This document shows, one piece after another, positions 7,943-32,931 of a stretch of DNA of 64,000 nt. Position 1 is the first letter of the stretch; each line of letters opens with the position of its first letter. The notes beneath the pieces were generated by a model. The model worked only from the letters and a program-made list of their open reading frames with translations, did no database searches and had not been told where the DNA came from. A program made the position numbers and the translations under genes. The DNA comes from Nitrospiraceae bacterium (GTDB lineage: Bacteria > Nitrospirota > Nitrospiria > Nitrospirales > Nitrospiraceae): contig CAKKRE010000002.1 of assembly GCA_919902505.1 (NCBI GenBank), positions 124,001 to 188,000 of the forward strand, given 5' to 3'.

Positions 7943-8031
7943 GCCGCCACTTCGCTCAACCTGACTTCTCGATCAATCGGCCCTCAAGTTTCATCCCGCA
8001 CCGTCCGATGATGGTTCAGGGGAGTGCCTGC

Positions 8032-8754
8032 ATGGGTTTGGAAATCGTTGAAATTGTCGAAGACGACCAGGGGCAGGCCAAGTTGTTGGATCGGATCCTT
8101 CGGCAAGCGTCTTTCCGGACTAATGTCGCATTCGACGGTCCGTCCGCCATGCAGGACGTGTGGCGGATCAAGCCCTCCTTGATCATGGCCGACGATAACT
8201 TGCCCGGCCTGACAGGACGGGAAATGTGCAAACGTTTGCGCCAGGACCCTTCCACGAAATACATTCCCATCATTCTCATGTCCGGCTATTCGTCTGAAGA
8301 ACGTCGTGTCGAGGCGCTCGATGGGGGAGCCGATGACTTCATCGCCAAACCGTATGCATCGGCCGAACTCGTGGCGCGCGTCAGGGCGCTGCTGCGCCGA
8401 TCTCGCCAAGGACAAGAACAGGACGAAGAACACGGTGAGGATCTTGCCTTGACGGATAGTCTGTATGTCGTAGTGTACCGCGGACAGAAGCTGACGCTCT
8501 CGGCTCATGAATGGAAGTCACTGCGGCGACTGAGCAGCACGGTCGGCAGCGTGGTCCCTCGCGAAGAACTCAGCACGCTGCTCTGGGGCGACGATGCCCT
8601 GATGCATGACGGGGAAATCGACCGGTGCATGGAACAATTGAATACGAAACTGGGCGGGGAGGGGCCGGCGGTGGGACAGATCAACATGGTTCCCGGCGGT
8701 TTTCGCTTGAGCGTCCCTCCTTCAGACAAGCCGGACGTCGTCCAGGCTCGATAA
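8032..8754 (+). CDS. Response regulator, intact receiver with divergent winged-helix output
   Basis: Receiver residues are complete: acidic pair in EIVEDDQG, phospho-acceptor Asp in LIMADDNLPG, switch Ser in IILMSGYS, and Lys in FIAKPYA. The C-terminal 100 residues keep an OmpR-like outline (KLTLSAHEWKSLRRL, REELSTLLWG, VPGGFRLSV) but the recognition helix (EIDRCMEQLNTKL) departs from the usual consensus. ATG 8032 is chosen because AGGGGAG lies 7 nt upstream; longer in-frame starts lack this. No histidine kinase is adjacent. It resembles the 19991-20695 regulator in length and N-terminus. Its 3' end overlaps the convergent CHAD gene by 33 bp. Confidence 0.8.
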   Translation: MGLEIVEIVEDDQGQAKLLDRILRQASFRTNVAFDGPSAMQDVWRIKPSLIMADDNLPGLTGREMCKRLRQDPSTKYIPIILMSGYSSEERRVEALDGGADDFIAKPYASAELVARVRALLRRSRQGQEQDEEHGEDLALTDSLYVVVYRGQKLTLSAHEWKSLRRLSSTVGSVVPREELSTLLWGDDALMHDGEIDRCMEQLNTKLGGEGPAVGQINMVPGGFRLSVPPSDKPDVVQAR

Positions 8755-11879: not shown

Positions 11880-12548
11880 CTACACGCTCGCAGAGGGGGC
11901 TACGTGCCGGATGTTCTTGCCTTCAACCATGTAGACGACCAGTTCCGCAATATTGGTGGCATGGTCGGCGATCCGTTCGAGCGACTTCGCCACAAAGGTG
12001 AGCCGGATCGCGCGGGTAATGGTCCGCGTATCTTCCAGCATAAAGGAGAGCAGTTCTCGAAACAACTGCTCGTTCACCTCATCGACAAAGTCGTCGTCGG
12101 CGCACACTTTCCGCGCCAGCACCGGATCTGAATTCACGAAGGCATCCAGACAGTCCTTGACCATGCGCATCGTCCAATTGGCCATGCGCGGGATGTCGAT
12201 ATAGGGCTTCAGCTGCGGCTCGCCGTTCAGCTCCAGGGCTCGCTGCGCGATGTTGTCGGCCAGATCGCCCATCCGTTCCAGTTCAGACGAAATCTTCATC
12301 CCCGTCGTCACGAATCGCAGATCGCGAGCCGTCGGCTGTTGCAGGGCCAGCAACTGGATGCAGAGCTCGTCGATCTCGACATCCAACGCGTTGACATCGT
12401 GGTCCTGCTTGATGACGTCGACCGCCAGATCGGAATCCCGATCCACCAGCGCCTGGAGGGCCAGCTGAATCTGCGATTCGACGAGCCCCCCCATGCGGAG
12501 CAATGTCTGCTTGAGATGCGCGAGGTCTTGATCGAAATGTCGTTGCAT
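11880..12548 (-). CDS. phoU: PhoU phosphate-transport regulator
   Basis: All-helical regulator that links the Pst transporter to the phosphate two-component system, 222 aa. It shows the two PhoU repeats: first MQRHFDQDLAHLKQTLLRMG through ALNVEIDE-like positions, then ELERMGDLADNIAQRAL and SLERIADHATNIAELVVYM, each carrying the E-R-x-x-D-x-A/H metal-site pattern. AAGGAG lies 7 nt before ATG 12548. It follows pstB after a 249-bp gap containing repeats, so it may be on the pst transcript or have its own promoter. ppx begins without a gap. Confidence 0.92.
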   Translation of the reverse strand: MQRHFDQDLAHLKQTLLRMGGLVESQIQLALQALVDRDSDLAVDVIKQDHDVNALDVEIDELCIQLLALQQPTARDLRFVTTGMKISSELERMGDLADNIAQRALELNGEPQLKPYIDIPRMANWTMRMVKDCLDAFVNSDPVLARKVCADDDFVDEVNEQLFRELLSFMLEDTRTITRAIRLTFVAKSLERIADHATNIAELVVYMVEGKNIRHVAPSASV

Positions 12549-12797
12549 GGTCGGGCTCCTTCTCTAGCAGGCGTTCGTCGTTCGTGAAGCGTCGTTCGTC
12601 TCTCGTCCGCAGAGAAGAGCTTATGGCATAGAGCTTATAGCGTATGGCCAGAAATCGAGAGTTGGCGTCTCTACTCTCAGCCGTACGCCACGAGCCATAC
12701 GCTCTGACCCCGACGAGATACGTTTCACGATTCACGCTTCACGGATCCGGAAGTGACGAGAGAGCACAGCCGCGTTCGTTTTCAACATCCTGACAGG
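12549..12797. repeat. Gap between pstB and phoU with short direct and inverted repeats
   Basis: I see no gene here. The stretch holds a direct repeat GAGCTTAT at 12617-12624 and 12631-12638, a 10-bp inverted pair AGCGTATGGC (12639-12648) and GCCATACGCT (12694-12703), and runs built on CGTTCGT and TTCACG (for example near 12565-12600 and 12722-12741). Its base composition is unlike the flanking genes. It may form an RNA hairpin on the pst-phoU transcript. Confidence 0.55.
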
Positions 12798-13661
12798 TTA
12801 CCCAAACCGGCCGGTGATGTAGTCTTCCGTTCGTTTATCGTGCGGGGTCGTAAAAATCGTCTTGGTATCGCCGAACTCTACCAATTCGCCCATCAGAAAA
12901 AAACCGCATTGATCCGACACGCGCGCGGCCTGCTGCATGTTGTGCGTCACGATTACCACGGTGTAGGTATCCTTCAAGGTATAGATGAGTTCTTCGATCT
13001 TGCCGGTCGCGATGGGATCCAGGGCCGAACAGGGCTCATCCATCAGGATGACGTCGGGCTGGACCGCCAGCGCGCGCGCAATGCACAACCGCTGTTGTTG
13101 TCCGCCGGACAATCCCAGGGCACTTTGCATCAACCGGTCCTTCACCTCATCCCAGAGTCCGGCGCCCTGCAGACTATGCTGCACGAGTTCATCCAGGGAC
13201 CGTTTATCCTTGGTGCCGTGCAGACGCGGCCCGTATGCAACATTGTCGTAGATCGATTTGGGAAACGGGTTCGATTTCTGAAAGACCATCCCCACACGCT
13301 TCCTGAGATCGGTGACGTCGATGGCGGGGTCGTAGATGTCGACACCGTCCAGTTCCACACGCCCCACCGCACGCGCACCTTCCACCAGGTCGTTCATGCG
13401 ATTCAGACATCGCAGCAACGTGGATTTTCCGCACCCCGACGGGCCGATAAAGGAGGTGACCGAATGGGTCCGCACCGTCAGTGAAACCCGAAACAAGGCC
13501 TGTCGTTGGCCATAATAGAAGTCGAGATTACGGACCAGCACTTTTGCATCGACGGAAGTTCCATGCGCCTCATGGGGACGAGCGAGACGCGGTTGGGGAA
13601 CGGTCGGACGCAGTGACAGTGCCGGCGCCGTCGGCGACAGACTACGAGTCTGGATATCCAT
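12798..13661 (-). CDS. pstB: Phosphate ABC transporter ATP-binding protein PstB
   Basis: ATPase of the high-affinity phosphate importer. Walker [16 protein letters not shown], signature [15 protein letters not shown], Walker [14 protein letters not shown] and the switch His in [12 protein letters not shown] are all intact, as is the PstB-typical [10 protein letters not shown]. The first 40 residues are an additional Pro/Ser-rich extension. ATG 13661 has AAAGGA 6 nt upstream; a TTG two codons earlier is possible. It starts 18 bp after the pstA stop codon, completing a pstS-C-A-B order. Confidence 0.95.
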
Positions 13662-13679
13662 GCGCAATCCTTTCTGCGA

Positions 13680-15329
13680 TCACACGGCCGATGCGGTAAA
13701 TCGTCGCCGTAAACGGTTGCGTAGCCGCACGGCCGCCCAATTCAGCAACACGACCACCAGGATCAGAATCAGCGTGGTCATATACACCATCGGCTTCGCC
13801 GCCTCGACGTTCGGGGACTGAAACCCGACGTCGTAAATATGGAATCCCAAGTGCATGAACTTTCGATCGAGATGCAGAAAGGGTAGGTATTCGTCCAGCG
13901 GGAGGGCAGGGGCCAATTTCACCACCCCGGTCAGCATCAACGGCGCCACTTCCCCGGCGGCCCTCGCCATGGCCAGGATCAGCCCCGTCAAAATTCCCGG
14001 TAACGCGCAGGGGAGGATCACATGCCGGAGCGTTTCGAATTTGGTCGCACCCAGTCCGAGCGACCCTTCGCGAAAATCGCGCGGGACCGCAGACAGGCCT
14101 TCCTCCGTGGCGACGATCACGACCGGGACGGTGAGCAGCGCCAGGGTCAACGAAGCCCACAGGATGCCGCCCGTGCCGAAGGTGGGATTCGGGAGCGCCT
14201 CGGGAAACAACCATTGATCGATCGTGCCACCCAGCGCATAGACAAAAAAGGCGAGGCCGAACACCCCGAAGACAATGGACGGCACACCGGCCAGATTATT
14301 GACCGCGATCCGCACCAACCGGACCAAGGGGCCCTGAGTGGCATATTCCCGCAAATAGACGGCGGCCATCACACCGAACGGCATCACCGCCAGGGTCATC
14401 AAAAAGACCATCAGGACCGTGCCGAAGATGGCCGGGAAGATGCCGCCTTCCGTGTTCGCTTCACGGGGTTCGCTCGAAACAAACAGCCACAGATTCTGGA
14501 CATAGGCCAGGAGCTTCTCAACCCAGTGCATTCCGTTCGGACGACTGACGGCCAACACCTGATCGAGAGAGAGCCGCACCGACCGGCCGGTGGAGAGTGT
14601 CAAGAACAAGACCTCCTGCCCGGCCTCCTTGTGTAGCCGCTCCAGCGCCTCCGTCTTGGCGAGATAGTCTCGTTCCAACGCGGTCATCTGATCGAGGAGG
14701 CGTTGGTCTTTTTCGGCATCGGCGGGGGCGAGTCGACCGCTCAGCGTCAACGCATGTCTGGCAAGCCTGGCCTTCTCAATCCGATAGTTGATGGATCCGA
14801 TTTCTTCTCGCTCCAGATGCTCGATCCGCCGACGTAACTGATTGGCCCGCTCCACCAGCGTTTTCACCGTCGTCCATGAACTCCCGCTTGCACTTCCTGT
14901 CGCTGCCCCCTCCACGCCGACCATGATCCGACCGAAGGCAGGCCCCCACTCACGCCGCTCGACCACCGTGAGATCCTCGGGACGCGCGCTCGACACCATA
15001 TCCGAGGCATCGATCCAACGATATTCGGACCCGAACACATCCCGATTGCCGACGCGATACCGAAACCGGCGCTGTCCGGCCGGCGAGTCCGGCGTGACCG
15101 AATTGGGAATGACTTCTTCTCCCACCACCTGACCGATCACCGTCTCCTGCGTCCTCAGCGTCGTCTCCTGCAAGGCACCGGGCCAGAATTGTCCCAGGCC
15201 GTTGATCATAATCAGTCCCAGCATGCCGGCCACCATCAACAGGCTGAGCGCCACACCGGAGGCCGTCATCCAGACGAACAGTTCCCCGCCGCGCCAGAAG
15301 TCCTTCATGAGCGTCGACCGTTCACCCAT
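13680..15329 (-). CDS. pstA: Phosphate ABC transporter permease PstA, long form
   Basis: Membrane subunit of the phosphate importer, 549 aa, far longer than the roughly 300-aa E. coli protein. After an N-terminal membrane helix (ASGVALSLLMVAGMLGLIMI) comes a large extracytoplasmic insertion (about residues 45-290) with a coiled-coil stretch (LRRRIEHLEREEIGSINYRIEK). The C-terminal 260 residues hold the permease core with the EAA loop EEGLSAVPRDFREGSLGLGA. Long PstA and PstC of this sort are known from Pseudomonas. ATG 15329 overlaps the end of pstC by 8 bp, indicating translational coupling. Confidence 0.92.
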   Translation of the reverse strand: MGERSTLMKDFWRGGELFVWMTASGVALSLLMVAGMLGLIMINGLGQFWPGALQETTLRTQETVIGQVVGEEVIPNSVTPDSPAGQRRFRYRVGNRDVFGSEYRWIDASDMVSSARPEDLTVVERREWGPAFGRIMVGVEGAATGSASGSSWTTVKTLVERANQLRRRIEHLEREEIGSINYRIEKARLARHALTLSGRLAPADAEKDQRLLDQMTALERDYLAKTEALERLHKEAGQEVLFLTLSTGRSVRLSLDQVLAVSRPNGMHWVEKLLAYVQNLWLFVSSEPREANTEGGIFPAIFGTVLMVFLMTLAVMPFGVMAAVYLREYATQGPLVRLVRIAVNNLAGVPSIVFGVFGLAFFVYALGGTIDQWLFPEALPNPTFGTGGILWASLTLALLTVPVVIVATEEGLSAVPRDFREGSLGLGATKFETLRHVILPCALPGILTGLILAMARAAGEVAPLMLTGVVKLAPALPLDEYLPFLHLDRKFMHLGFHIYDVGFQSPNVEAAKPMVYMTTLILILVVVLLNWAAVRLRNRLRRRFTASAV

Positions 15330-17550
15330 GGCTGTACTTATCCCGGAGCCGCTGACGAATGAGTTCCGCTAACGAGTTGATGACAAATGTGACGAGGAAC
15401 AACAGCAAGGCGGCCAGGAACAACACCCGATAGAGACTGCCGCCATGCGGGGCTTCCGGAATTTCCACGGCGATATTGGCCGACAGCGTCCGAAAGCCGT
15501 TCGCCCAATTCCAATCCAGAATGGGAGTATTTCCCGTGGCCATCAGGACGATCATGGTTTCCCCGATCGCGCGCCCGAACCCGATCATCACGGCGGAAAA
15601 GATTCCTGGGCTGGCGGACAGCAACACCAGATGCAGAACGGTTTGCCAACGAGTCGCTCCCAACGCGAGCGAGCCGGCGATTTGGATCTTCGGCACATTG
15701 GAGAGCGCCTCTTCGGCAATGCTGTAGATCACCGGGACGATGGCAAATCCCATCACCATACCGACGATCAGGGCGTTGCGCTGATCGTATTGAATGCCGA
15801 GCCGGCTTGAGAGCCAGGCTTTCACGTTCCCGTCGAACCACCAGCTTTCGATGAACGAATTGGCCCAGAGGCACCCGGCGATTCCCAGTCCCAGAATAGG
15901 GATCAACAGCAAGGCTTCCTGACCGTGCGGGAGGTGTCGTTTCACGGATAACGGACAGAGGTACCAGGCGAACGAGGCCACGACAACCAGCAGAGGCAAC
16001 ACCAGCGCCATACCGGCCACCGCCGGGAGCATTCGTTCAAGGAGGGGGGCCAGCCAGAGTCCGGCAAGGAAACCGAGCACCACGGTCGGCAAGGCCGCCA
16101 TGACTTCAATAACAGGTTTAATTTTTGCGCGCAGGTCCTGATGCATGAACTGCGAGGTGCACATCGCCGCCAGAATGGCAATCGGCACCGCGAGAAACAG
16201 GGCGTACATCGTCCCTTTGAGAGTTCCGAATGCCAGCGGAAGCAGACCGAGCTTCGGCTCAACATCATCCGACCCTGAGGAGGATTGCCACACATGTGCC
16301 GGCTGATCGTACCCCTCGTACCAGACCTTGCCGAACAATGTTTCGAGCGTCACTTCAGGATAGGCATTCTGCACCTGGTACAGAGACAGTTGCCCGGCCC
16401 CGTCCAACGCGATCAACCCGTCGCCTTTCGGCGCGAACGCCACGGCGCGGATCGGAAACGCGCTGTTGGCCAGCCGCAACAACGTTTGAGAAGAGGTCGC
16501 ATGGTGCAGGAACAGATTGCCCTTCGCATCTCCGGTCACAAACCCCTTGACCCGTTGAGACGGAGCAAATGCGGTGACCGGCGCATTGTGAGCGCGGAGG
16601 GTATGGATTCGGGTCAGAGTCCAACCGGACGGGGCATTGGCGCGTCGCACAAGTCCCCAGGTCGAAACCGCACCGTCCTCAGACATGACCACCAGGCTAC
16701 GATCGCCACTCAGGAACCCCAACGTCGTGACGGCTGTCGAAGGTGCAGCGACAGTATAGGCAGCCCTCATCTCCGGCGACTCCGTCTCGGACAAGGCGAC
16801 ATGCACCACCTGTCCGTCCGCGGTTCCCACATACAGATTTTCAAGCAACGCATCCAGGGCGAGGGCCGTCACCGCACCTCTCGGTTGCGGCAGTTCCGTG
16901 ATGATGGGATGTTGACCCGCCACGTCATCCGCCGCTATGCGCACGACGAGCAGCCGGCCGCCTTTCGACACGAGGGCCAGCAGACTTTCGTGATCATTGG
17001 CCCGGTAGGCCAGCCGGACGATGGGGCTCTTCGTCAGTGGAATAGGTTGACCGGCGCGAATATGCGGGCGCTTGCGTCGCTCGCCTCGATCGGTAAATTC
17101 CGTCGTGGTGCCGACTTTCAAGAACAGGACTTCGCCGTCGGCTGTGCCCACGGCCATCCGTGGAGCATTGCCGCCACCGGACGCCATCGCCGTGATCCGG
17201 CGGGCCTTCACCTGCGCCGGCATGTCCAACGGGATGGGTTGGCCCGATGCCAGGTCGAAGAACTGGATGGCTCCGGATGTAAACACCTGCGCGATCTCAC
17301 GATGTTCATCGACCGCCACCTGAGCCGGGCCTTCATCCACAAGCAGGGCAGGCACGCTCAGGCGTTGAGTCAACTTCGCGCTCGGCGCGGTGAACAACGG
17401 GGTGACTTCGCGAAACAGAAAGAAGAAGATCCCGAGAATGCTGACGATGGTCGCGAGCCCACCGACGGTAATAATGGCTCGGGCGAGCCGATCGAGCAAT
17501 GTTCGGAGATGCACAGGCCTCGGCATCAGTCGGAATCGCTCCGTGATCAT
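15322..17550 (-). CDS. pstC: Phosphate ABC transporter permease PstC with beta-propeller insertion
   Basis: The second permease subunit, 742 aa. A first membrane helix (near residues 22-45) is followed by about 350 residues with repeated beta-strand blades (VAVDEHREIAQVF, ALALDALLENLYVGTADGQ, TAFAPSQRVKGFVTGD, AVAFAPKGDGLIALD) resembling a WD40-like propeller. The C-terminal 330 residues contain the permease helices and EAA loop EEALSNVPKIQIAGSLALGA. It overlaps pstS by one base (TAATG) and pstA by 8 bp. What the propeller binds is unknown; long PstC proteins occur in other phyla. Confidence 0.92.
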   Translation of the reverse strand: MITERFRLMPRPVHLRTLLDRLARAIITVGGLATIVSILGIFFFLFREVTPLFTAPSAKLTQRLSVPALLVDEGPAQVAVDEHREIAQVFTSGAIQFFDLASGQPIPLDMPAQVKARRITAMASGGGNAPRMAVGTADGEVLFLKVGTTTEFTDRGERRKRPHIRAGQPIPLTKSPIVRLAYRANDHESLLALVSKGGRLLVVRIAADDVAGQHPIITELPQPRGAVTALALDALLENLYVGTADGQVVHVALSETESPEMRAAYTVAAPSTAVTTLGFLSGDRSLVVMSEDGAVSTWGLVRRANAPSGWTLTRIHTLRAHNAPVTAFAPSQRVKGFVTGDAKGNLFLHHATSSQTLLRLANSAFPIRAVAFAPKGDGLIALDGAGQLSLYQVQNAYPEVTLETLFGKVWYEGYDQPAHVWQSSSGSDDVEPKLGLLPLAFGTLKGTMYALFLAVPIAILAAMCTSQFMHQDLRAKIKPVIEVMAALPTVVLGFLAGLWLAPLLERMLPAVAGMALVLPLLVVVASFAWYLCPLSVKRHLPHGQEALLLIPILGLGIAGCLWANSFIESWWFDGNVKAWLSSRLGIQYDQRNALIVGMVMGFAIVPVIYSIAEEALSNVPKIQIAGSLALGATRWQTVLHLVLLSASPGIFSAVMIGFGRAIGETMIVLMATGNTPILDWNWANGFRTLSANIAVEIPEAPHGGSLYRVLFLAALLLFLVTFVINSLAELIRQRLRDKYSHG

Positions 17551-18569
17551 TACCGGATCTGGCTCAGCTGCTTCTCAGCCAAGGTGGCATCGACCGGGAA
17601 GTAGCCATCCCTCAGCACGTCGGATTGCCCCTCCCTGCTGTATACGTAGGCAAGAAACTCTTTCACGATGGGGGAGAGTGGTTTTCCCGGAGCCTGATTC
17701 ACATAGATGTACAAGTATCGCCAGAGCGGATACGTGCCGTTCCTCGTGTTCGCCTGGGTGGGTTCGATGAACGGTTGGCCGGCCTTCGCCGCCAACGGAA
17801 GCATTTTCACTCCGGACGTGCTATAGCCGATCCCGCTGTACCCGATGCCGTATCGATCTTCGCTGATCCCTTGCACCACCGAGGCAGAGCCCGGCTGTTC
17901 CTTCACTTGATCCTTGAAGTCGCCATTCTTGAGGGCGTGCTCCTTGAAGAATCCGTATGTGCCGGAAGCTGAATTGCGGCCGTAGAGACTGACAGGCGCA
18001 GCGGCCCAGTCGCCGGTCAAGCCGAGTTGTCCCCACTTGTTCAGGTCGACGGCATGGCCCTGCCTCCGGGACTTGGAAAACAGCGCATCCGCCTCCGCGA
18101 CCGTGAGCCCCTTGATCGGATTGTCCTTATTGACGAAAAGCGCCAAGGCATCCACCGCGACAGGGTAGGCAGTCGGCGGGTACCCGAACTTCGTTTCGAA
18201 TGCATCGATCTCGCTCGACTTCATCGTCCGCGACATGGGACCGAGTTGAGCCGTATTTTCAATGAGCGCAGGCGGTGCCGTGCTGGACCCCTTGCCCTCG
18301 ACTTGAATTTTCACATTGGGATATTGCTTCCGGAATCCTTCGGCCCACAGCGTGATCAGGTTGTTCAGGGTATCGGAACCGATGCTGTTGATCGTTCCGG
18401 AGACGCCACTGACCTTCTGATACGGTCGTAAGGACGTGTCCGCTCCCGCTGCCTGCCTTACGCAGGTCGACGGCATTACAATCAGAGCGTACAGCAGCGA
18501 GAACACCAGGATGGTCGTCCTCGGATGCCCGTTTTCCAATTCGTGCCCGGCATTCGACTCATGACGCAT
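17550..18569 (-). CDS. pstS: Periplasmic phosphate-binding protein PstS (first copy)
   Basis: Captures phosphate and delivers it to PstCAB. It shows [59 protein letters not shown] and [18 protein letters not shown], the phosphate-binding loops of PstS. A hydrophobic N-terminal signal segment ([16 protein letters not shown]) is present. ATG 18569 is selected over TTG 18593 because AAGGAG lies just upstream. A Pho-box-like repeat (18634-18650) precedes it. A second, divergent PstS is at 22259-23425. Confidence 0.93.
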
Positions 18570-18633
18570 GTCAGACTCCTTCTTTTCCTGCAATGCAATG
18601 TAGGGAAGAGAGATTTCAGGATGATCGACACCG

Positions 18634-19990: not shown

Positions 19991-20695
19991 ATGGGTTCTA
20001 CGATCGTCCAAATCATCGAAGACGAGCCGCTCCACGCCGATCTGTTGAACCGCGCCTTGCGCCAGGCTCAATTCGCGACGACGCTTGCCGCGGATGGTGA
20101 GAGTGGATGGCGTGACGCGCAGCGACTACTGCCTTCGTTGATTCTGCTCGATCTCATGCTGCCGGGTCTGAGCGGCCATGAGGTCTGTCGCTTGGTGCGA
20201 CGCACACCGTCCACACGCCATATTCCGATCATCATGCTGACGGCCGTTGGAGCAGAAGCAGACCGTATTGCCGGCCTTGAAATGGGAGCAGACGACTACG
20301 TGGTGAAGCCGTTCAGCCCGCGGGAAGTCGTGTCCCGCGTTCAGGCCGTGCTGCGCAGAGTCCATGAGACACGTCGTGAGGATCCTGTTCTGTTTTCCGA
20401 TACCTCCATCACCATGGAGGGGCCGTACTTCGTCCTGTCCTTGCAGGAACGGCACATCACCGTCTCGAACACAGAACTGAGGCTGCTTCAGTATCTGCTG
20501 ACCCGGGATGGGGAATTAGTGCGCGGCGATGAATTGTTGAATCTTCCAGGCGAGGAGCTCGGGAGCACGAACAGAGAAGAACTTGAGCACCGCGTGCGCT
20601 TTCTTCGACGAAAGCTGGAGAACAGCGGGACGGGATCGATTGAGATATTGCCGGGGTCTCGCTATCGCTTCCTGGCACATCCGAAGCCGACCTGA
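19991..20695 (+). CDS. Response regulator, OmpR-like, orphan
   Basis: A 234-aa two-domain regulator. The receiver is complete: acidic residues in IIEDEP, Asp in LILLDLMLPGLSG, Thr in IIMLTAVG, Lys in YVVKPFS. The C-terminus is a divergent winged helix (ITVSNTELRLLQYLLTRDGE, REELEHRVRFLRRKLE, SRYRFL). It resembles the 8032-8754 regulator. No sensor kinase is encoded nearby. A Pho-box-like repeat upstream suggests that it belongs to, and may control, the phosphate-starvation response; if so it is a candidate PhoB. Confidence 0.8.
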   Translation: MGSTIVQIIEDEPLHADLLNRALRQAQFATTLAADGESGWRDAQRLLPSLILLDLMLPGLSGHEVCRLVRRTPSTRHIPIIMLTAVGAEADRIAGLEMGADDYVVKPFSPREVVSRVQAVLRRVHETRREDPVLFSDTSITMEGPYFVLSLQERHITVSNTELRLLQYLLTRDGELVRGDELLNLPGEELGSTNREELEHRVRFLRRKLENSGTGSIEILPGSRYRFLAHPKPT

Positions 20696-21225: not shown

Positions 21226-21735
21226 CTAAATCTCTTCGCGGCCGCAGAAAGATCCTCTCGCGGTTCCGTCGCCCTGCGCCGGGGAACAACGCACCGCCAC
21301 CACTCGAATCGCCCCGAGCGCCAGGAGAATGGCTCCGAGCGAGAGCAGCTTCCTGTAGTCCGCATCCTTGAACCAGAGAGAAATGATTTCCGTCAGCATG
21401 ACCACGAGAATCGTATCGACGATGAAGGTGACTTTAACGCGGCCTTCTGAAAAATAGGTCAGCGTGGTCTTGAACACTTCCACCACCGCGAGAAGGATCA
21501 GCGTATCGACGATGATCTGGCGCAGCCCGATTTCAACCGGCACATCGAACAACAGCCGGATATCCAGGAAGGTCTTGATCACCCCGCCGGTCAGGGCGAT
21601 GAGGATCGTCAGAATGAGCAGGCTGAGGACTGCCTTGATTCCTTTCATCCAGAGTTCGGTGAGATCGGTGTCGATGGCACGCCCAATGAAATCCGAAAGG
21701 CGATGGACTCGAGGATCTGAATTCATGAACGTCAT
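21226..21735 (-). CDS. psiE: PsiE-family phosphate-starvation-inducible membrane protein
   Basis: A 169-aa membrane protein with four hydrophobic segments (GIKAVLSLLILTILIALTGG, LRQIIVDTLILLAVVEVFKT, FIVDTILVVMLTEIISLWF, LSLGAILLALGAIRVVAV). The IVDTLILLAVVEVFKT and VDTILVVMLTEI regions fit the PsiE family, whose biochemical role is unknown. AAGGAG precedes ATG 21735. A 38-codon membrane-protein gene lies 53 bp upstream on the same strand, and a Pho-box-like repeat precedes both. The polar C-terminal tail (RCSPAQGDGTARGSF) is unusual. Confidence 0.72.
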   Translation of the reverse strand: MTFMNSDPRVHRLSDFIGRAIDTDLTELWMKGIKAVLSLLILTILIALTGGVIKTFLDIRLLFDVPVEIGLRQIIVDTLILLAVVEVFKTTLTYFSEGRVKVTFIVDTILVVMLTEIISLWFKDADYRKLLSLGAILLALGAIRVVAVRCSPAQGDGTARGSFCGREEI

Positions 21736-22001: not shown

Positions 22002-22018
22002 GGTTACGGCATTGTTAC
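22002..22018 (-). promoter_or_regulatory. Pho-box-like repeat upstream of the small-protein/psiE pair
   Basis: On the minus strand GTAACA (22018-22013) and GTAACC (22007-22002) are spaced 11 bp, about 100 bp before the 38-codon gene. The hexamer GTAACA also occurs at the sites at 26987-26992 and 28487-28492. Confidence 0.5.
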
Positions 22019-22258: not shown

Positions 22259-23425
22259 ATGACACGACAGCAGCAGACAGGTTCCAGCCATCACCGTGGC
22301 GCTCGTTCAGTTTTTACCGCGCTGGCCACCGCCGCCGCGCTGTCCTTATTCGCTGGTTATGCCGGAGCGGAGCATGCGGGTCTTAGCGGTGCTGGAGGGC
22401 CGACGGTCGATCCCGCAATTGAACCCTACACCAATCATAATGGGTTACATGGCAAGCTGAGTATTGCCGGATCGGACACCATGAGACCGTTGATCTCGAA
22501 GTTGGCGGCGCAATTCTTGAGCCTCCACCCAGGGGCGCAGATCGCGGTGGAAGGCACGGGATCGACTGCGGCTATCCGGGAATTCTTGTTGGGCCTGTCG
22601 TACCAACGCCGCGGGGACAAAGTGCAAAGTCGAGGAACGGCGGGATCCAACACGGTGGAGTTGCTCGCGTCGTCTCGGCAACTGACCGAAGATGAACAGA
22701 AGGGATTTGAATCCAACTATGGCTATCAGGCGCTCGAAGTGCCGATCGCGATGGATGCCGTCGCCATCTATGTGCACAAAGACAACCCTATTCAACGGTT
22801 GACGTTGACGCAAATCGACGGAATCTTCGGAAAAGATCACAAGCGGGGACAGGCCGCGATTAACAATTGGAGCCAGGTCGGATTGTTGGATGCACCACTG
22901 GCGCAACAACCTATTCATCCATACGGCCGTGACAAGCGATCCGGTACCAGAGAATTCTTCAAGCATGTCGCCCTTAAGGATGGAGACCTGATCGACACGG
23001 TTATGGAACAACCGGGGTCCGCTTCCGAAATCATTGCGATTGCCCAAGATTCTTTGGCGGTAGGATATGCAGGGGCCGGATTCAGCATTTCCGATGTCCG
23101 TCAAGTGCCGATCGCCACGCAGCCGGATCAGACGGCATATTTGCCTTCAGTGGATACGGTCACTTCCGGCACCTATCCATTGGGTCGTTCCCTCTATCTC
23201 TACGTGAAGAAGAATCCCAAGGAAAAATTGGACCCGTTTGTGGCGGAGTTTCTCTCATTTGTGAACAGCCGGCAGGGACAAGAGACGGTGGCACGGGCAA
23301 GTTTCTATCCGTTGACTCGCGCTCAAGTCGCAAAAAACCTGCAGGATTTGGGTCTTCTGAAAGGGGCGATGGTCGGCACACCTGCTAAGAACGAGCTGCA
23401 AGTCGCCGAGCAGATGACCCGCTAA
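22259..23425 (+). CDS. Periplasmic phosphate-binding protein, PstS-like (second copy)
   Basis: A 388-aa PstS/SphX-type binding protein. Signal peptide: basic start, then VFTALATAAALSLFAGYAGA with likely cleavage after AGA. Phosphate-binding loops: KLSIAGSDTMRPLISKLAAQ, IAVEGTGSTAAIREFLLG, MDAVAIYVHKDNPIQRLT, YGRDKRSGTREFFKHVAL. GGAGG lies about 7 nt before ATG 22259. It is monocistronic, with its own Pho-box-like repeat upstream and a strong terminator downstream. No permease genes adjoin it, so it either feeds the pstCAB system at 12.8-17.6 kb or acts as a phosphate scavenger or sensor. Confidence 0.88.
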   Translation: MTRQQQTGSSHHRGARSVFTALATAAALSLFAGYAGAEHAGLSGAGGPTVDPAIEPYTNHNGLHGKLSIAGSDTMRPLISKLAAQFLSLHPGAQIAVEGTGSTAAIREFLLGLSYQRRGDKVQSRGTAGSNTVELLASSRQLTEDEQKGFESNYGYQALEVPIAMDAVAIYVHKDNPIQRLTLTQIDGIFGKDHKRGQAAINNWSQVGLLDAPLAQQPIHPYGRDKRSGTREFFKHVALKDGDLIDTVMEQPGSASEIIAIAQDSLAVGYAGAGFSISDVRQVPIATQPDQTAYLPSVDTVTSGTYPLGRSLYLYVKKNPKEKLDPFVAEFLSFVNSRQGQETVARASFYPLTRAQVAKNLQDLGLLKGAMVGTPAKNELQVAEQMTR

Positions 23426-23602: not shown

Positions 23603-24298
23603 ATGAAAAGCGCACTTGTCCGGACTCTGCTCTGTTCCACGGCGATCGTAGTGACCCTTCAGATCGGCTGCAGCAGCCCACCGCCGCCGCGAACGTCCTA
23701 TCAAGACCCTATTACATCGATCCGCCTCTACGTCGATGAGCGTGCCGACGCCGGACACAGCCATCCTGGCCAGGTCACGGCTGACCAAATGGCTAGAGTT
23801 CTGCACGGGATCCGGGTCGTACCTCGGACGGGATTCATCGGCTCGCTGATCACCGGGCAAACGCAGACGAACCCGGCTTTTTCATCCAGTGAAATCCAAA
23901 TCCTCGCACCCAGATTGAGTCGTGCCCTGTCGGAAGCCACCCCCCAAGAGCTGGTCACATTTTACCGTCGTTTCTCCGACGCGAGCGTCGGCCTGGCGAT
24001 CACCTCCGGCGGCATGTTTGTCCAAGACAGTCATCTGTTTGTGGTGCTGGCCAACAACCGGACACTACCGACCGACGGCATGAATCAAAACATGGTCACC
24101 GATTTCGATCCGATCGATAGTCCCCTCGTTCCCATTTCCCGGACAAGCTTTCGTGTGGAATTCGTCCCTTCGACAGCTCTAGTCCCTGAAGATCAACGTC
24201 CGTCCTGGCCCTACATCGACGAAGGACGAATCTTGGCGATCGATCTGCAGCAACTCGACCGCGACAAGAAGTCTGCGCCACCGGCTGCTAAACCCTAG
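23603..24298 (+). CDS. Putative lipoprotein of unknown function
   Basis: A 231-aa exported protein with signal sequence MKSALVRTLLCSTAIVVTLQ and a Cys after IG that could be lipidated, although the lipobox (LQIGC) is off consensus. The rest is a mixed alpha/beta domain with ISIRLYVDE-like strands and no catalytic motif that I recognise. ATG 23603 is chosen for GGAGGTGA 4 nt upstream; an in-frame start at 23573 lacks one. The gene follows the pstS terminator. Its TAG stop codon (24296-24298) is the outer end of the palindromic repeat 24293-24478. Confidence 0.65.
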   Translation: MKSALVRTLLCSTAIVVTLQIGCSSPPPPRTSYQDPITSIRLYVDERADAGHSHPGQVTADQMARVLHGIRVVPRTGFIGSLITGQTQTNPAFSSSEIQILAPRLSRALSEATPQELVTFYRRFSDASVGLAITSGGMFVQDSHLFVVLANNRTLPTDGMNQNMVTDFDPIDSPLVPISRTSFRVEFVPSTALVPEDQRPSWPYIDEGRILAIDLQQLDRDKKSAPPAAKP

Positions 24299-25286: not shown

Positions 25287-26798
25287 TTAGTTCCAGAACC
25301 ATTGCGCCTGGAATCGTAATTGGGAGTCGTCGAAGTCAGACTGTGCCCGATTGGCAACCAAGGTGCTGTTCAGACCATCCTTAAACACCCAGTCTGCCGT
25401 AAGACGGAAGTGGGTGTCGGGTTCCCACACCAAACCGAGGTTCCAAGTCCTGGATTGTCCATCCGGTGCTCCGTTCAATGACTTGAACCCGCCATAGTAC
25501 TCACCGTAGCGAACATAGGGGGTTAACATGCCGACATCGGAATAGCGCCAAGTGTAATACCCTTGGACATATCCCCCGACAAGGCTGCTTTCTTCTATAA
25601 AATTCGTCTGGGAGTTTCGTTTGGGACCGCGACCGACGGTAAATTCCGCCAAGAGTCCCCAAGGTTGCGGTGGGGTCCACACGTAGGCGGTGACACGTTG
25701 ATCTTTGATATCGCAGCCACCTTCCGAGGTCAGCGGACTGATACATCTGGCCGCACTCGAGACATTCGGCTGGCTCGCTCCCTGCACGGCAAACACTCCG
25801 TGGAAGCCGAGAACGCCGGCTTCGAGCAGTCGTCCGTTTCGGAACTGGAACGGATAGGCGAGCTTGGCTCCGATATGTTTATCGTGGTTTAACTCCAATC
25901 GATTTCTGGTTTGACCATTGTAGACCATGACGCCGAAGACACCGTAGTCGCCCGGTCCATTATGGTAGGCCGCGAGCTGTGCAAACCGCTCCTGCGCGAT
26001 TTTCGGGCTCCAGTAATAGGCCACACCCAGATCTCGTTCTCCCGGTGCACCGCTTTGCACCGATTCGTGCCGATCCATTTCCTGACGGTTGGTGCTCGAT
26101 CGGTAGGTATCGAAGGAGTTGGGGACACGATGGAGCCCCCATCGAATCCGGTGCTCCTTGTCCTTAGTGATATAGAAGTCTGAGTAGGCGTCGATGATTT
26201 CTCTGTTCGATAGTTCCTGTTGTCCGCCCTCCAAAGCGAACTGGGTGAAAAACGCCACGCGTTCAGACACCTGACCTTGGAAGACCAGGCGAAGCCGTCG
26301 GGCATAGAATTCGTTCCCCTGTTGATCGCCGAAGCTATCGTTCAAGGGCAAATCAAACCGTCTATTCGTCGCGCCCATGTTGTATCTGAACTGCATATAA
26401 CCGGTGACGCGAATGCGCTCGTACCAACGGGGATTACCCGCCATCTGCAATTCTGCCGACTGCTCAAAAATACGGCGTTCTTCTTCGGCCTTGAGGCGTA
26501 TCCAGTCTTCCTGAGTAATCACACCCTTCTCGAGTAAGAGACTTTCGAGTGAGGTACTCTGGATCGAAAGGCGTTGCCCTGAGGTTTCCCGATCGACGTT
26601 GTTCGCAGTGGGTATGACTTGGGGCGCAACCTCCATGGAGGAGATCGCGTCACTCGATTGAACAGACCCCTGAGCGAACAACCGCGGCACAGGCTCCTTC
26701 GAACCGGCCGACACCTGCAGCGGCAGCAGCGCCAGAGCCCCGCCGATGCAGAGCGTCACCGCAGACCATTTCAGAACATAGAATCCACCGTACGTCAT
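25287..26798 (-). CDS. Phosphate-selective porin, OprP/OprO type
   Basis: Outer-membrane porin of 503 aa. After a signal peptide (VTLCIGGALALLPLQVSA) comes a short coiled-coil-like region (SLESLLLEKGVITQEDWIRL) and then a barrel with OprP-like strands: RIRVTGYMQFRYNMG, EFYARRLRLVFQGQV, HRIRWGLHRVPNSFDTYRSS, RLTADWVFKDGLNS. It probably admits phosphate across the outer membrane. The AGGAGGG ribosome site lies just before ATG 26798. A multi-copy Pho-box-like repeat precedes it, and it is divergent from a PhoB-like regulator gene. Family assignment rests on pattern, so other anions are possible. Confidence 0.78.
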   Translation of the reverse strand: MTYGGFYVLKWSAVTLCIGGALALLPLQVSAGSKEPVPRLFAQGSVQSSDAISSMEVAPQVIPTANNVDRETSGQRLSIQSTSLESLLLEKGVITQEDWIRLKAEEERRIFEQSAELQMAGNPRWYERIRVTGYMQFRYNMGATNRRFDLPLNDSFGDQQGNEFYARRLRLVFQGQVSERVAFFTQFALEGGQQELSNREIIDAYSDFYITKDKEHRIRWGLHRVPNSFDTYRSSTNRQEMDRHESVQSGAPGERDLGVAYYWSPKIAQERFAQLAAYHNGPGDYGVFGVMVYNGQTRNRLELNHDKHIGAKLAYPFQFRNGRLLEAGVLGFHGVFAVQGASQPNVSSAARCISPLTSEGGCDIKDQRVTAYVWTPPQPWGLLAEFTVGRGPKRNSQTNFIEESSLVGGYVQGYYTWRYSDVGMLTPYVRYGEYYGGFKSLNGAPDGQSRTWNLGLVWEPDTHFRLTADWVFKDGLNSTLVANRAQSDFDDSQLRFQAQWFWN

Positions 26799-26916
26799 TC
26801 ATCCCTCCTCATAGTGTGATGCTGTTACCCGTTCGGGCCATGACCTGTGCCCACAGTACAAATGATGAAGCCAAACGATTTCACGCCAGGAGTATCCCTC
26901 GGCTTCGTGACGTACC

Positions 26917-26944
26917 TGTCACCGACGTATTAAGACTCTGTAAA
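26917..26944 (-). promoter_or_regulatory. Pho-box-like repeat upstream of the porin gene
   Basis: On the minus strand TTTACA (26944-26939), TTAATA (26933-26928) and GTGACA (26922-26917) recur every 11 bp; a weaker CGCACA lies one step further upstream. The porin starts about 120 bp downstream. Confidence 0.6.
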
Positions 26945-26975: not shown

Positions 26976-27003
26976 TTTACACACATGTAACAGGCTGATT
27001 ACT
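26976..27003 (+). promoter_or_regulatory. Pho-box-like repeat upstream of the PhoB-like gene
   Basis: TTTACA (26976-26981), GTAACA (26987-26992) and ATTACT (26998-27003) recur every 11 bp. The site lies 32 bp from the porin's site and points the other way, making a compact divergent control region. The gene starts 51 bp downstream. Confidence 0.6.
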
Positions 27004-27053
27004 CCGCAACAATCGCTTGCCCGTATGGTGCGACATCAGTGCATGGAGGGTTC

Positions 27054-27749
27054 ATGAACACAGCCGGCATAAAGAAGCCTCTCCTTCTCGTAAGCGGCGA
27101 CCATGTTTCGTCAGGCTCTCTAGCCAAACTGCTCGAGACCAACGGCTACGATATTCGCGTGGCGGCAACACTGACGTCCGCACTGAGCGAAATCCGGCGG
27201 CACTCCCCGGTGCTGATTCTTGTGGATCGACGAACCCTCGCCGAAGAAGCCGGACGCCGGGACCAGTTCCCTCTTGCCATCCCGATCATCGTCCTGCAGC
27301 CATTCGACAAGTCCTGCGGCGAGGATGAATGCCTCACCGAGCTGGACGCCGGATACGACCTTGTGTTCTGTTCCCCCCACTACCGTGAACTCCTCGCGCA
27401 TATCCGGGCGATACTTCGTCGACACAACCTGCCATCGGCAGCTCCATCTGTTCTCCGCGTCGAAGGCCTCGCGATGGATACGGCCCGCCATGAAGTGACG
27501 GTCGGGGGGGTGCACGTCGAACTCACACCGAAAGAATTTCGCATCCTCCATCAATTTCTCCTCTCACCGGGAGTCGTGCTGTCGAGGCAAGATCTGCTCA
27601 ATCGCGTCTGGGGGGAGGACTATGCCCTTGAAGAACATGCGTTGGATGTCCACATCCATTCGTTGCGCCAGAAAATCGAAGCAGACCCTTCCAGACCGAT
27701 TTTCATCGTGACAATTCGCGGAGTCGGATACAAACTTCAGAGTCCCTGA
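27054..27749 (+). CDS. PhoB/OmpR-like regulator with degenerate receiver
   Basis: A 231-aa protein. The C-terminal winged helix is intact and typical (VHVELTPKEFRILHQFLL, VLSRQDLLNRVWGEDYALEE, HALDVHIHSLRQKIE, IVTIRGVGYKL). The N-terminal receiver has lost key residues: the acidic pair is reduced (LLLVSGDHV), the Thr position reads VLQPFDK, and the invariant Lys is replaced (LVFCSPHY). The central Asp may remain (LILVDRR). It is therefore probably not controlled by ordinary phosphorylation. GGAGG precedes ATG 27054. It is divergent from the porin gene and has its own Pho-box-like repeat. Confidence 0.82.
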   Translation: MNTAGIKKPLLLVSGDHVSSGSLAKLLETNGYDIRVAATLTSALSEIRRHSPVLILVDRRTLAEEAGRRDQFPLAIPIIVLQPFDKSCGEDECLTELDAGYDLVFCSPHYRELLAHIRAILRRHNLPSAAPSVLRVEGLAMDTARHEVTVGGVHVELTPKEFRILHQFLLSPGVVLSRQDLLNRVWGEDYALEEHALDVHIHSLRQKIEADPSRPIFIVTIRGVGYKLQSP

Positions 27750-27986: not shown

Positions 27987-28370
27987 TTAAAACTCGTCCA
28001 CCGACACCGGCTGCAACAGATCCCGTACCGAAAGAACCCCGACGATCGCGCCGCTCTTCAAGACACCCAGATGGCGGGTGTGGTGATGTTGCATGAGATC
28101 GGCCGCTTCCGTGATCGAACGCCGCTCATCCAAGCTGATGACGGGGCTGCTCATGATGGATTCCACGGGAACAAAATGCACCGGCCTGTTTTCACCCACG
28201 ACTTTTCGCACGATATCGGACTCGGTCACGATGCCGACCACACGGTCGTTCTGCTCGATAAACACGCTGCCGACATGGCGCTCGTTCATCACTCTGGCTG
28301 CGTCCGCCGCCGAAGTGCCGGCCGGCACCGTCACCAGCTTCTTCGTCATGAGCTCACTGACTGTCACCAT
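27987..28370 (-). CDS. CBS-domain-pair protein
   Basis: A 127-aa protein made of two CBS domains: VSELMTKKLVTVPAGTSAAD to DRVVGIVTESDIVRKVV, then VESIMSSPVISLDERRSITE to GVLSVRDLL. Such pairs bind adenine nucleotides and act as energy or ligand sensors. Starting at ATG 28370 gives MVTVSELMTKK, with AAGGAGG 7 nt upstream. No effector domain is fused. A three-copy Pho-box-like repeat upstream (28465-28492) suggests control by phosphate, unexpected for this family. Confidence 0.85.
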   Translation of the reverse strand: MVTVSELMTKKLVTVPAGTSAADAARVMNERHVGSVFIEQNDRVVGIVTESDIVRKVVGENRPVHFVPVESIMSSPVISLDERRSITEAADLMQHHHTRHLGVLKSGAIVGVLSVRDLLQPVSVDEF

Positions 28371-28464
28371 ACTGTATCCTCCTTGTTGAATGTGTCTCAT
28401 CGGCGGCTGTCTCTCACCTTGCCGATGCTCTAACAGGGAGCATAATCCTGCTACGTTCCAGGAC

Positions 28465-28492
28465 GGTTAGGCGACCGTAAATTCTCTGTTAC
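28465..28492 (-). promoter_or_regulatory. Pho-box-like triple repeat upstream of the CBS gene
   Basis: On the minus strand GTAACA (28492-28487), TTTACG (28481-28476) and CTAACC (28470-28465) recur every 11 bp, about 95 bp before the start codon. Confidence 0.55.
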
Positions 28493-28582
28493 GAATGGGC
28501 TCGAAGTGGACTGCGAGGAGGACAGGCGCGGCACAGGCGAGGATCGCCCGTGCCGTACCCTGAGAGAAATGCCGGGGAACGA

Positions 28583-29232: not shown

Positions 29233-32200
29233 TTACTTCTTCTCGGCACAGCGATCGTAGACGCGTCGCGAATCCGACAACGGCTCCCACCGTAGGATCT
29301 GCAGCGCGTCGTCCACGTAAGCCGGCGTGCGCATTCCGTTGAGCACGGAAGTCACCCCCGTTGTGCTGGCGAGAATCCACAGCGCCTTCTGCGACAAGGT
29401 GGCCTTCCGTCTCGGTTCGGGCAACAGTGGATCGATGGTTCGATGCAGCTCTTCCGCGCGCAGGCGGCTCCGCTCGCTGGCTTCCCGATGCAACGTGCGC
29501 AGGAGCGCGAGGAGTTCCGGGACGTACCGGTCACGCCAGGTTTCCCACTGCTCAGCAATGGTACCCGTAAACGCTTCGGAGAGCACGCGAAGCACCTGAT
29601 TGACGTGGGGTGCAATCATCTGCGTTTCGATTTGCTCCCAATGTTCCAAGCCCTGCACCTGCGTGCGGATGCGGTTCAGTTCGTCGGCCCATCGAAAAAA
29701 GTCTGCGGGAAGCATGCCTTGGCCGCTGTGAGCCACTGCCGGCGCAAGATCCTTTCGATACGCTTCTTCCAGGAGGGCCACCTTCTGTCGTTGCGGCTCG
29801 AAGTCCGCCTCCGGCGCCGGCGCCGGCACATCGGCCAACCGCACCACGCCGCCGCGCTGGGCCGGCATCGCATTCAGCGGGCGATTCACGAGCACCGCGA
29901 CACCTTCCCTCATGGCTTCAGCCAGCAAGGTGCTGCCGTTGTCCGGACCCGTATTCTTTATCAACGTCGCGCCGGACTCGTGCACATTCATCGGGCACTG
30001 CAAGACCGTGAAATGATGAGCGGCCGCTCCGACATTCTTCGCCGCCGCCTTCGCGGCTGCAATCATGCGAGACAGAGAAGTGGCGCCGGACTCGTCCGGA
30101 GATGCCGTGGACGTATTGGACGAGACGCCGTACCCGCGCAGCCGGCCTGCTTCGACCTGCCTTTCGCAATACTCGAATGCCAGTTGCAACCGCGCATAAA
30201 ATTCATCGCGCAGCGTGGACAGTTCCCGTTGCTCACCGGCGCCGAGCCGGGTCGCGTGGGACAGGAAATACTCCGGGTTGTGGAGCAAACAGACATCCAA
30301 CGTCGCCAATCCCAGTCGATCCAGCGACAGCGTCAATTGATCCGCTAGAAACTCTGGATGGATACAGTGCCAGATGTCGTCGCCGTACTTCACCATGTCC
30401 GGATAGGGCTTCCCGGCTTTTTCCCGCGTTTTGGCCTGGGCCAGATTCTGGCCTTGCACATAGCCGATCTTCGACACCACGATGATGTCCTCGCGGGCCA
30501 CTTCACCGGCACGGATCAATTGCTGCAGGACCGCGCCCACCACTTGCTCGCTCTCACCGTCCATATAATTCGTCGAGGTGTCGATCAGATTACAGCCCGA
30601 GCGAATCGCCTTGAGCAAGGCTTCCCGATGCTCCGCTTCCCGTTGCCCGACCCGGTAGGTGCCGAATCCCAGGCGGCTCACCGTGAGTCCCATCGCCCCG
30701 AACGGCCCGAACCCATGGGCCAGGGAGCCTGGCCCGGTGGCATCGTGGATCTTCCGGGCGGCGTAACCGGCCGTGCCCTGAACGGTCGCGCTCCCTGGAT
30801 ACAAATTTCCGCTCAAGACCTTCTGCTCGGGCGCAGCCAATGACGGTGCAGCTTTGTGCGACGGATCGAGTAGGCCAGGGAGATCTGCGGGATCAATGAT
30901 CGGTTGTCGGCAAGCAAAATTCCGACAGACATAGAGCGCCGCCTTACCGCCGACCAGGGTCTTCCCTTGCAACAGCGGATGGGTCGGTTCGGACTGCTGC
31001 GATGTCCGATAGGCGATAACACGATTCGGAATATAGGTCCGGCTGACTGCCGCGCGTAACGCGACGGTGTTGGGATCGCCGGATACCCCGATGACGGCCA
31101 TTTCAACCGGGCCGCTGGTCAACAAATCGACGACGATCAAACTCTTCGCGAACGCGCGCGGGTAGCGGGCGACCTGGCGACCGTAGGCACGGATTGCCGC
31201 AGCAGCCGCCTGCCGGAAATCATCCCGCCCGAAGTGGTAGGACAATCTGGCCAGCGCCGAGGCCGCCACAGCATTCCCGCTCGGCGTGGCTCCGTCCGGA
31301 CCTTCACGGCTGCGCATGATCAGGGCTTCATGGCCGGTGGCCGTGGTGAAGAACCCGCCGTGCTGATTGTCGGAGAAATCCGCCAGGATGCGCTCCGCGA
31401 GCCGCACCGCCGCAGACAGGTACCGCTCGTTGCCGCCTGCTTCATAGGTGTCGATCAAGCCTTCGGCAAAGTAGGCATAGTCTTCCAGGTAGGCATCCAG
31501 GTGAGCCGTGCCGGCGCGATAGGTCCGCAACAGTCGTCCGTCAGTCTTGGAGAGCGTCGTCAGGAGAAACTCACAGGCGCGCTCGGCAGCCGCCCGGTAC
31601 CGCGGCATGTCGAACACCCGCCCGGCTTCTGCCATGGCACTGATCATCATCCCGTTCCAGGCGGTGATGACCTTGTCATCGAGCCCGGGCGGAACCCGTT
31701 TCGCGCGCGCCTCATAGAGCAACGGCTTGACTCGATCGATGGTCGCCTGCAAGTCCTCAACGGTCAGCCCTAGCTCGTTCGCCACCGACGCGACGGGCTT
31801 GGCCGTATGCAGCACGTTCTTGTGCTCCCAGTTGCCGGCCGTTGTGACATCGTAATAGGCACAGATCCGACGCACGTCCTCTTCGTTCGAGAGCACCGCG
31901 CGAATCTCATCCGGCGTCCAGACGAAGAATTTGCCTTCCACCCCTTCAGAGTCGGCATCGGTCGCGGAATAAAACCCGCCCTCGGGGGACGTCATTTCCT
32001 TCAGAATATAGTCGAGGGTCTCACAGGCCACGCGGCGGTAGTTTTGATCGCCGGTCACCTGAAACGCTTCAACATAGACGCGCGCCAGCAAGGCGTTGTC
32101 GTAGAGCATCTTCTCGAAATGGGGCACCAGCCACCGTTCGTCCGTCGAATAGCGCGCGAAACCGCCGCCGATCTGGTCGTAGATCCCGCCGGCCGCCATG

Positions 32201-32931
32201 GCATCCAGCGTGGTGCGGACCATCGTGAGCGTGTGGGGATCCTTTGTGCGGTGATAACAATGGAGCAACAGCGAGAGGCCGGTGGCAGGTGGAAACTTCG
32301 GGGCGCCGCCGAATCCTCCCAGCTTGGCATCGAAGTCCTCCGCAAACTGGGTCACGGCCATGTCGAGTTCGGCTTCGCCGACCGTGGTCGGGGAAGGGGC
32401 GTGACTGCCGTCCTGCAGGCGCGCGGTGAGCGTGGCCGCTTGCGCGACGACGCCGGCGTGGTCCTTCTCCCAGTACTCGGCAATTTTCTTCAGCAGGGTG
32501 GGGAAGCCCGGACGGCCCCATCGATCCTCCGGCGGAAAATAGGTTCCGGCAAAAAACGGTTTCTGATCGGGGGTGAGAAACACGGTCATCGGCCAGCCGC
32601 CCTGATTCCGGTTCAGCGCCAGCGTGGCCTGCATGTAGATCTCATCAAGATCGGGCCGCTCTTCGCGATCGACTTTGATGCAGACGAAATGTTGATTCAT
32701 CAGCCGGGCGATCGCCTCGTTCTCAAACGATTCCCGCTCCATGACGTGACACCAATGGCAGGAGGAATACCCGATGGAGAGCAGAATCGGTCGATTCAGC
32801 TTCGCCGCCTGGCCCAAGGCCTCCGGCCCCCAGGGATACCAATCCACCGGGTTATAGGCATGTTGCAGGAGATAGGGACTGGTCTGCTGTATGAGGCGAT
32901 TCGGCTTGCGGCCGGCGGTGGTGCTGGTCAT
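29233..32931 (-). CDS. Fusion of a DUF255/YyaL thioredoxin-like protein and an aldo/keto reductase
   Basis: A single 1232-codon frame. Residues 1-700 are the DUF255 (YyaL/spermatogenesis-associated protein 20-like) architecture: a thioredoxin-like domain with C58 and C61 in [14 protein letters not shown], an alpha/alpha barrel, and the C-terminal [16 protein letters not shown] linker of about 40 residues follows. Residues about 745-1230 are an aldo/keto reductase ([10 protein letters not shown]) whose D/Y/K/H tetrad appears as [19 protein letters not shown] and CLLHNPE. The two families are normally separate proteins. No frameshift or internal stop marks the joint. The substrates are unknown. 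Confidence 0.85.

Follow-up and report, generated by a model that had tools for sequence, protein, structure and literature searches.

An atypical OmpR/PhoB-family regulator with a pseudo-receiver in the phosphate island of Nitrospiraceae

The regulator gene and its neighbours

The stretch of DNA analysed here, called the window throughout, comprises 64,000 nucleotides from a Nitrospiraceae bacterium and carries an island of phosphate genes together with the gene for an unusual regulator. The features of interest, with the basis of each assignment in brackets, are as follows.

10323-18593, minus strand: ppx, phoU, pstB, pstA, pstC and pstS (ORF translations and conserved order; names read from the sequence)
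21226-21735, minus strand: PsiE family protein (profile match)
22259-23425, plus strand: second PstS-like phosphate-binding protein, PstS2, with arrays at 22003 and 22116 upstream (profile match, box scan)
23603-24298, plus strand: small putative lipoprotein, kept beside PstS2 in relatives (ORF translation, conserved order)
25287-26798, minus strand: OprP/OprO-like porin, divergent from the regulator (Pfam Porin_O_P)
26907-26944: phased half-sites GTGAC (26907), GTCAC (26918), ATTAA (26929) and GTAAA (26940), 11-bp spacing
26976-27013: Pho-box-like array TTTAC (26976), GTAAC (26987), ATTAC (26998) and ACAAT (27009), 11-bp spacing
27024-27029, plus strand: -10-like hexamer TATGGT, about 9 bp past the last half-site (consensus match only)
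27054-27749, plus strand: atypical OmpR/PhoB-family regulator, pseudo-receiver plus winged helix (domain search, alignment, AlphaFold2 model)

The island order ppx-phoU-pstBACS, PsiE, PstS2, lipoprotein, porin, regulator is kept in many relatives. The regulator of N. moscoviensis likewise lies alongside PstS, lipoprotein and porin, and in the more distant half of the genus it still adjoins PsiE and pst, with the porin elsewhere or not found in the stretch. A preliminary description of the locus had the regulator diverging from an OprP/O-like porin, and the neighbour at 25287-26798 is indeed a Porin_O_P member on the minus strand. N. moscoviensis (L166, L167) has two orthologues, each adjoining a PstS-like gene, the second of which (L110) is highly diverged. 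Reading of the window also turned up a PstC-like permease of 742 residues (15322-17550, minus strand), whose long extra region ahead of the permease part is kept in relatives, and a 1232-residue open reading frame (29233-32931) in which a thioredoxin-like part of the DUF255 type is fused to an aldo-keto reductase-like part.

The regulator gene encodes 231 amino acids from an ATG preceded by GGAGG at 27045-27049, laid out as a pseudo-receiver (about residues 8-124) and a winged-helix DNA-binding domain (about 132-229). Pfam returns Trans_reg_C only (3.7e-27, 94.7 bits against a cut-off of 26.2); Response_reg is absent from the matches, despite the receiver fold in the AlphaFold2 model. Fold modelling had been proposed in the preliminary description, and the resulting single-chain model, built from 49 input sequences, has a receiver fold as well as a winged helix, with a mean pLDDT of 84.7 and a modest pTM of 0.53 that leaves the mutual placement of the two domains unfixed. 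Structural matching pairs the winged helix with the VicR domain (Z 19.4, rmsd 1.1 over 100 residues) and the receiver with the PhoB receiver 1zes (Z 16.7, rmsd 1.7 over 113 residues), other receivers reaching Z 18. The best sequence matches among solved structures, RegX3 (2oqr, 2.1e-32) and KdpE (4kfc, 2.9e-27), cover both domains. With winged helix and receiver fold both present, the protein is an OmpR/PhoB-family transcription factor; its score against the PhoB equivalog model TIGR02154 is 124.4 bits, under the curated cut-off of 296.2.

Only five winged-helix proteins of the Trans_reg_C type are found in the genome. One of them, the canonical PhoB, is encoded on another contig (C3), next to a PhoR-like kinase that scores 312.8 bits against phoR_proteo, whose cut-off is 334.2; no kinase gene adjoining the regulator was recognised within the window. 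The window encodes two further regulators of this type, at 19991-20695 and 8023-8754, of which one belongs to the phosphate island. Their receivers are intact, and their winged helices are both weak and divergent, at 29.2 and 31.0 bits for Trans_reg_C (cut-off 26.2).

Orthologues are widespread: 66 of the 186 genomes of the class, mostly Nitrospiraceae, contain a match that reaches E 1e-46, with longer relatives that resemble another subfamily at the weaker end of the list. Two genomes (G028 and G009) have no orthologue, and the first also has no PstS1 match; both are drafts and may have gaps. One longer relative, a 466-residue open reading frame with an N-terminal extension and a degenerate receiver (L164, 4800-6200), adjoins a TonB-dependent receptor-like gene, and long open frames of this kind occur in many genomes of the family.

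Pho-box-like arrays and the residues that read DNA

The array at 26976-27013 gives the top motif score of the window (minus strand, GTTACATGTGTGTAAATT, 19.8), and the hexamer that follows it is kept roughly as TAnnnT in the alignment of relatives. Thirteen upstream regions, that of the window included, served to train the motif model; with this partial training on the region itself, five sites in the window score at least 15, against none in ten simulated 64-kb sequences. A box lies ahead of the regulator in the window and in all 23 syntenic relatives, 11 of which were outside the training set. Its position is directly ahead of the regulator in 21 of the 23, while in the other two (G021 and G022) it precedes a small lipoprotein gene immediately before the regulator. 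The earlier placement of the gene under a Pho box is thus supported by a Pho-box-like array, beyond what chance would give in the simulations. The second array, at 26907-26944, lies about 107 bp upstream of the porin and is kept in close relatives. A strict pattern, GTTACN6GTTAACT, was found in 11 of 29 genomes and is too strict for linking box with gene. Weak phased half-sites (scores 10.3 and 10.0) are also seen at 28466-28494, upstream of a CBS-domain gene (27987-28400, minus strand). Elsewhere, receiver-less stand-alone winged-helix proteins of 122-138 residues (L047, 3624-3992; L048, 15892-16308, minus strand) have their own Pho-box-like site upstream, and the first of these genes adjoins another porin-like gene.

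Which protein binds the boxes? The idea that the box is a private operator of the regulator was rejected, as boxes also precede pstS in four genomes (G055, G056, G059 and G068) that have no orthologue at E 1e-46. These same boxes make it likely that canonical PhoB binds at least some of the sites. For phoB itself, at the thresholds used, a scan out to 500 bp gave no box, either in the window's genome (G000) or in ten relatives.

In PhoB itself, Arg201 and Arg219 make specific hydrogen bonds, Thr194 and Val197 contact thymines, and a loop with W184, G185, E191 and D192 serves activation (PMC3973317). Two of the four base-contacting residues are kept in the regulator (Val197 as V199, Arg219 as R222), while Arg201 has become S203 and Thr194 has become A196; R193 and R200 are both replaced by His. 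It had been proposed earlier that the protein binds the same boxes as PhoB, which these replacements among the base-reading residues do not bear out; given contact residues unlike those of PhoB, the operator of the regulator may not be the box that we see. The sigma-contact loop, W186-G187-E188...E193-E194, is invariant or nearly so. The genome's canonical PhoB retains R193, T194, R200 and R201, and Nitrospira PhoB shows the reverse pattern, with the DNA-contact Arg and Thr retained and Thr-Thr at the acidic loop positions. This complementarity is striking, and could mean either a different operator or cooperation with PhoB.

One alternative, which we regard as doubtful though worth keeping in view, is that the response is damped or gated by the regulator, acting towards canonical PhoB as a competitor, an anti-activator or a heterodimer partner. 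It would sit on Pho boxes, or it would pair with PhoB or with one of the nearby receiver-intact regulators (19991-20695 or 8023-8754), much as WhiI pairs with BldM. Such a role would fit the location of the regulator gene together with a PhoB-type box, the region's two other regulators, in which the receiver is intact and the winged helix weak (29 and 31 bits), and the retention of usual dimer-face residues such as D102 and R123. However, the base-contacting residues differ from those of PhoB, and a pure competitor would not need the acidic sigma-contact loop that is invariant here. That loop points to an activator, and the role of competitor or heterodimer partner is the less likely of the two.

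A receiver without most of the phosphotransfer residues

In an alignment with E. coli PhoB, the genome's canonical PhoB and 23 syntenic relatives, the acidic pair E9/D10 of E. coli PhoB corresponds to S14/G15 of the regulator, the switch residue T83 to Q82, the invariant Lys K105 to C106 and the beta5 aromatic Y102 to L103. The beta3-alpha3 loop is short by six residues, the D+4 Pro among them. The phospho-acceptor D53 is retained as D58, so that of the canonical set of acidic pair, phospho-Asp, Thr/Ser and Lys, only the Asp is left. The preliminary description had listed the losses of acidic pair, switch Thr/Ser and Lys, and a search of the alignment for intact phosphorylation residues agrees with it on each; the retained Asp had gone unmentioned there. 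The earlier view of the domain as a pseudo-receiver stands: the regulator is of the atypical type, with a receiver fold that is without key phosphotransfer residues.

The same losses extend through the genus. Among 47 Nitrospira orthologues, the invariant Lys is missing in all, the acidic pair in every one whose sequence covers it, and the switch Thr/Ser in 43, the other four having Ser and none Thr. At position 58, D stands in 39, E in seven and G in one, so that 46 of the 47 have D or E there, and 45 have R59; in the window and its 23 syntenic relatives, Arg directly follows D58 in 24 of 24. In a maximum-likelihood tree the Glu58 sequences form one clade (support 100/99), with the Gly58 sequence separate. 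Two sequences from Actinomycetota (L112) and Firmicutes (L125), about 40% matches whose own receivers are canonical, served as outgroup only.

Because Glu is not phosphorylated as Asp is, the Glu58 clade should function without phosphorylation. Position 58 would then have a role that is open to Glu as well and is not accounted for by phosphorylation. The near-constant pairing of D58 with R59, together with the change from Asp to Glu in one clade, argues for a probably structural role of the acid, like that in GlnR. The regulator as a whole, judged by the D58E and D58G lineages, is probably phosphorylation-independent, as the preliminary description had suggested; the losses of Lys, acidic pair and Thr/Ser among the Nitrospira orthologues favour that suggestion as well.

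Perhaps the receiver instead senses a ligand, a metal or thiols, for example through cysteines around the dead site; we consider a switch of this general kind unlikely. All three of C88, C93 and C106 are present in 30 of the 47 receivers, C93 and C106 are jointly missing in ten, and redox cysteines do control the pseudo-receiver regulators RitR and HP1021, at positions other than those in the regulator according to a review of pseudo-receivers. Changes at C93 and at C106 map to three to four branches each and mostly coincide (Fisher p 3e-6 for the pair, with relatedness ignored). Several lineages without all or most of the cysteines nevertheless keep the gene and its synteny, and the trio is missing altogether in five of the 47. 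The specific version, in which C88 and C93 of the beta4-alpha4 insertion would act jointly with C106, where the Lys used to be, and turn the dead site into a thiol or metal switch, is a long shot, and we treat the cysteine trio as a lead, not a finding. If it were true, a PhoB-controlled PhoB-like activator would add a redox or metal signal to the Nitrospira phosphate response.

It is also improbable, in our estimate, that the regulator is still phosphorylated, only slowly, with PhoR or small donors still able to pass phosphate to D58 although the helper residues are gone. Retention of Asp58 in 39 of the 47 would be expected on this account, and substitutions of the DD, T or K residues do not always abolish the reaction (pseudo-receiver review). 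In the regulator, however, the metal-binding pair, Thr and Lys have all been lost together, along with the loop deletion, and two lineages have replaced the Asp by E or G with the DNA-binding domain intact.

The two domains evolve at different rates: mean pairwise identity is 42% in the receiver and 72% in the DNA-binding domain. In the nine pairwise comparisons with the window gene in which synonymous change was unsaturated, dN/dS was 0.13-0.30 for the receiver and 0.04-0.12 for the DNA-binding domain; the receiver is under purifying selection and the DNA-binding domain is nearly invariant. A decaying, functionless duplicate of PhoB, for which the faster divergence of the receiver might speak, is rejected as scarcely credible by dN/dS values well below 1 and by presence across the Nitrospiraceae, with no internal stops in the open reading frame among the matches listed.

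Proposed mechanism and known systems

How might such a protein act in the phosphate response? The reading that we prefer, with a probability of roughly 0.55, is that the regulator is a phosphorylation-independent OmpR/PhoB-family activator placed under a Pho box, and forms a second tier of the Nitrospiraceae phosphate response. Upon phosphate limitation, canonical PhoR-PhoB, encoded elsewhere, would turn the regulator gene on via the Pho box, and the protein would then activate the neighbouring uptake genes: the porin, PstS2 and perhaps its own gene. The receiver would be a built-in dimerisation module, held by the Asp58-Arg59 charge pair in the way that Asp50 acts in GlnR, and the signal would be carried by the dose of the regulator rather than by its phosphorylation. 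The sequence data are consistent with such PhoB-controlled synthesis of a phosphorylation-independent activator.

E. coli-type PhoB (TIGR02154) shares with the regulator the receiver-linker-winged helix layout, the sigma-contact loop (W184, G185, acidic 191/192), the wing Arg219 (here R222) and the link with Pho boxes and phosphate genes. Unlike PhoB, the regulator has lost phosphorylation residues, carries R193H, T194A, R200H and R201S in the recognition helix, and has no adjoining cognate kinase. RegX3 and KdpE match it in full length over both domains, but their receivers are canonical and phosphorylated.

Other members of the OmpR/PhoB family have degenerate receivers and work without phosphorylation, among them ChxR of Chlamydia and HP1043/HsrA of Helicobacter (PMC3960148, PMC8345958). 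These proteins resemble the regulator in family and receiver, and belong to other lineages with other regulons. To our knowledge, neither is linked to a phosphate island, and in the part of the literature that our search covered, no Pho island was described as containing a pseudo-receiver regulator. In the model put forward for CmrT of the C. difficile CmrRST system, the pseudo-receiver regulator is constitutively active, and how much of it is made depends on an ordinary two-component system (PMC12632262). The dose model proposed here is alike, although the CmrRST genes share an operon, while phoB-phoR here lie on another contig.

How pseudo-receiver regulators switch has been described as an open question (PMC12632262). 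The regulator adds to this already known class a large natural family whose physiological setting, phosphate uptake, is clear and whose hosts are nitrifiers of importance to the nitrogen cycle and to water treatment. The Asp-to-Glu clade is a built-in evolutionary test, and together with the predicted operators it makes the switching question directly testable.

A close parallel is GlnR, the atypical OmpR/PhoB-family regulator of actinobacteria, whose dimer is held together by Asp50 in its unphosphorylated form, along with Arg52 and Thr9 (PMC10704036, PMC12632262). Both proteins are orphans that keep the phospho-site Asp with a conserved Arg close by and have lost the pocket, and GlnR controls the uptake of a nutrient, nitrogen, as the regulator would that of phosphate. 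The Asp-focused dimer of the GlnR type is a homodimer formed via alpha4-beta5-alpha5 without phosphate, and the regulator matches it by sequence in the acid and the nearby Arg. They differ in that the Arg stands at D+2 in GlnR and at D+1 in the regulator, and in organism group and targets, and the two need not be specific relatives.
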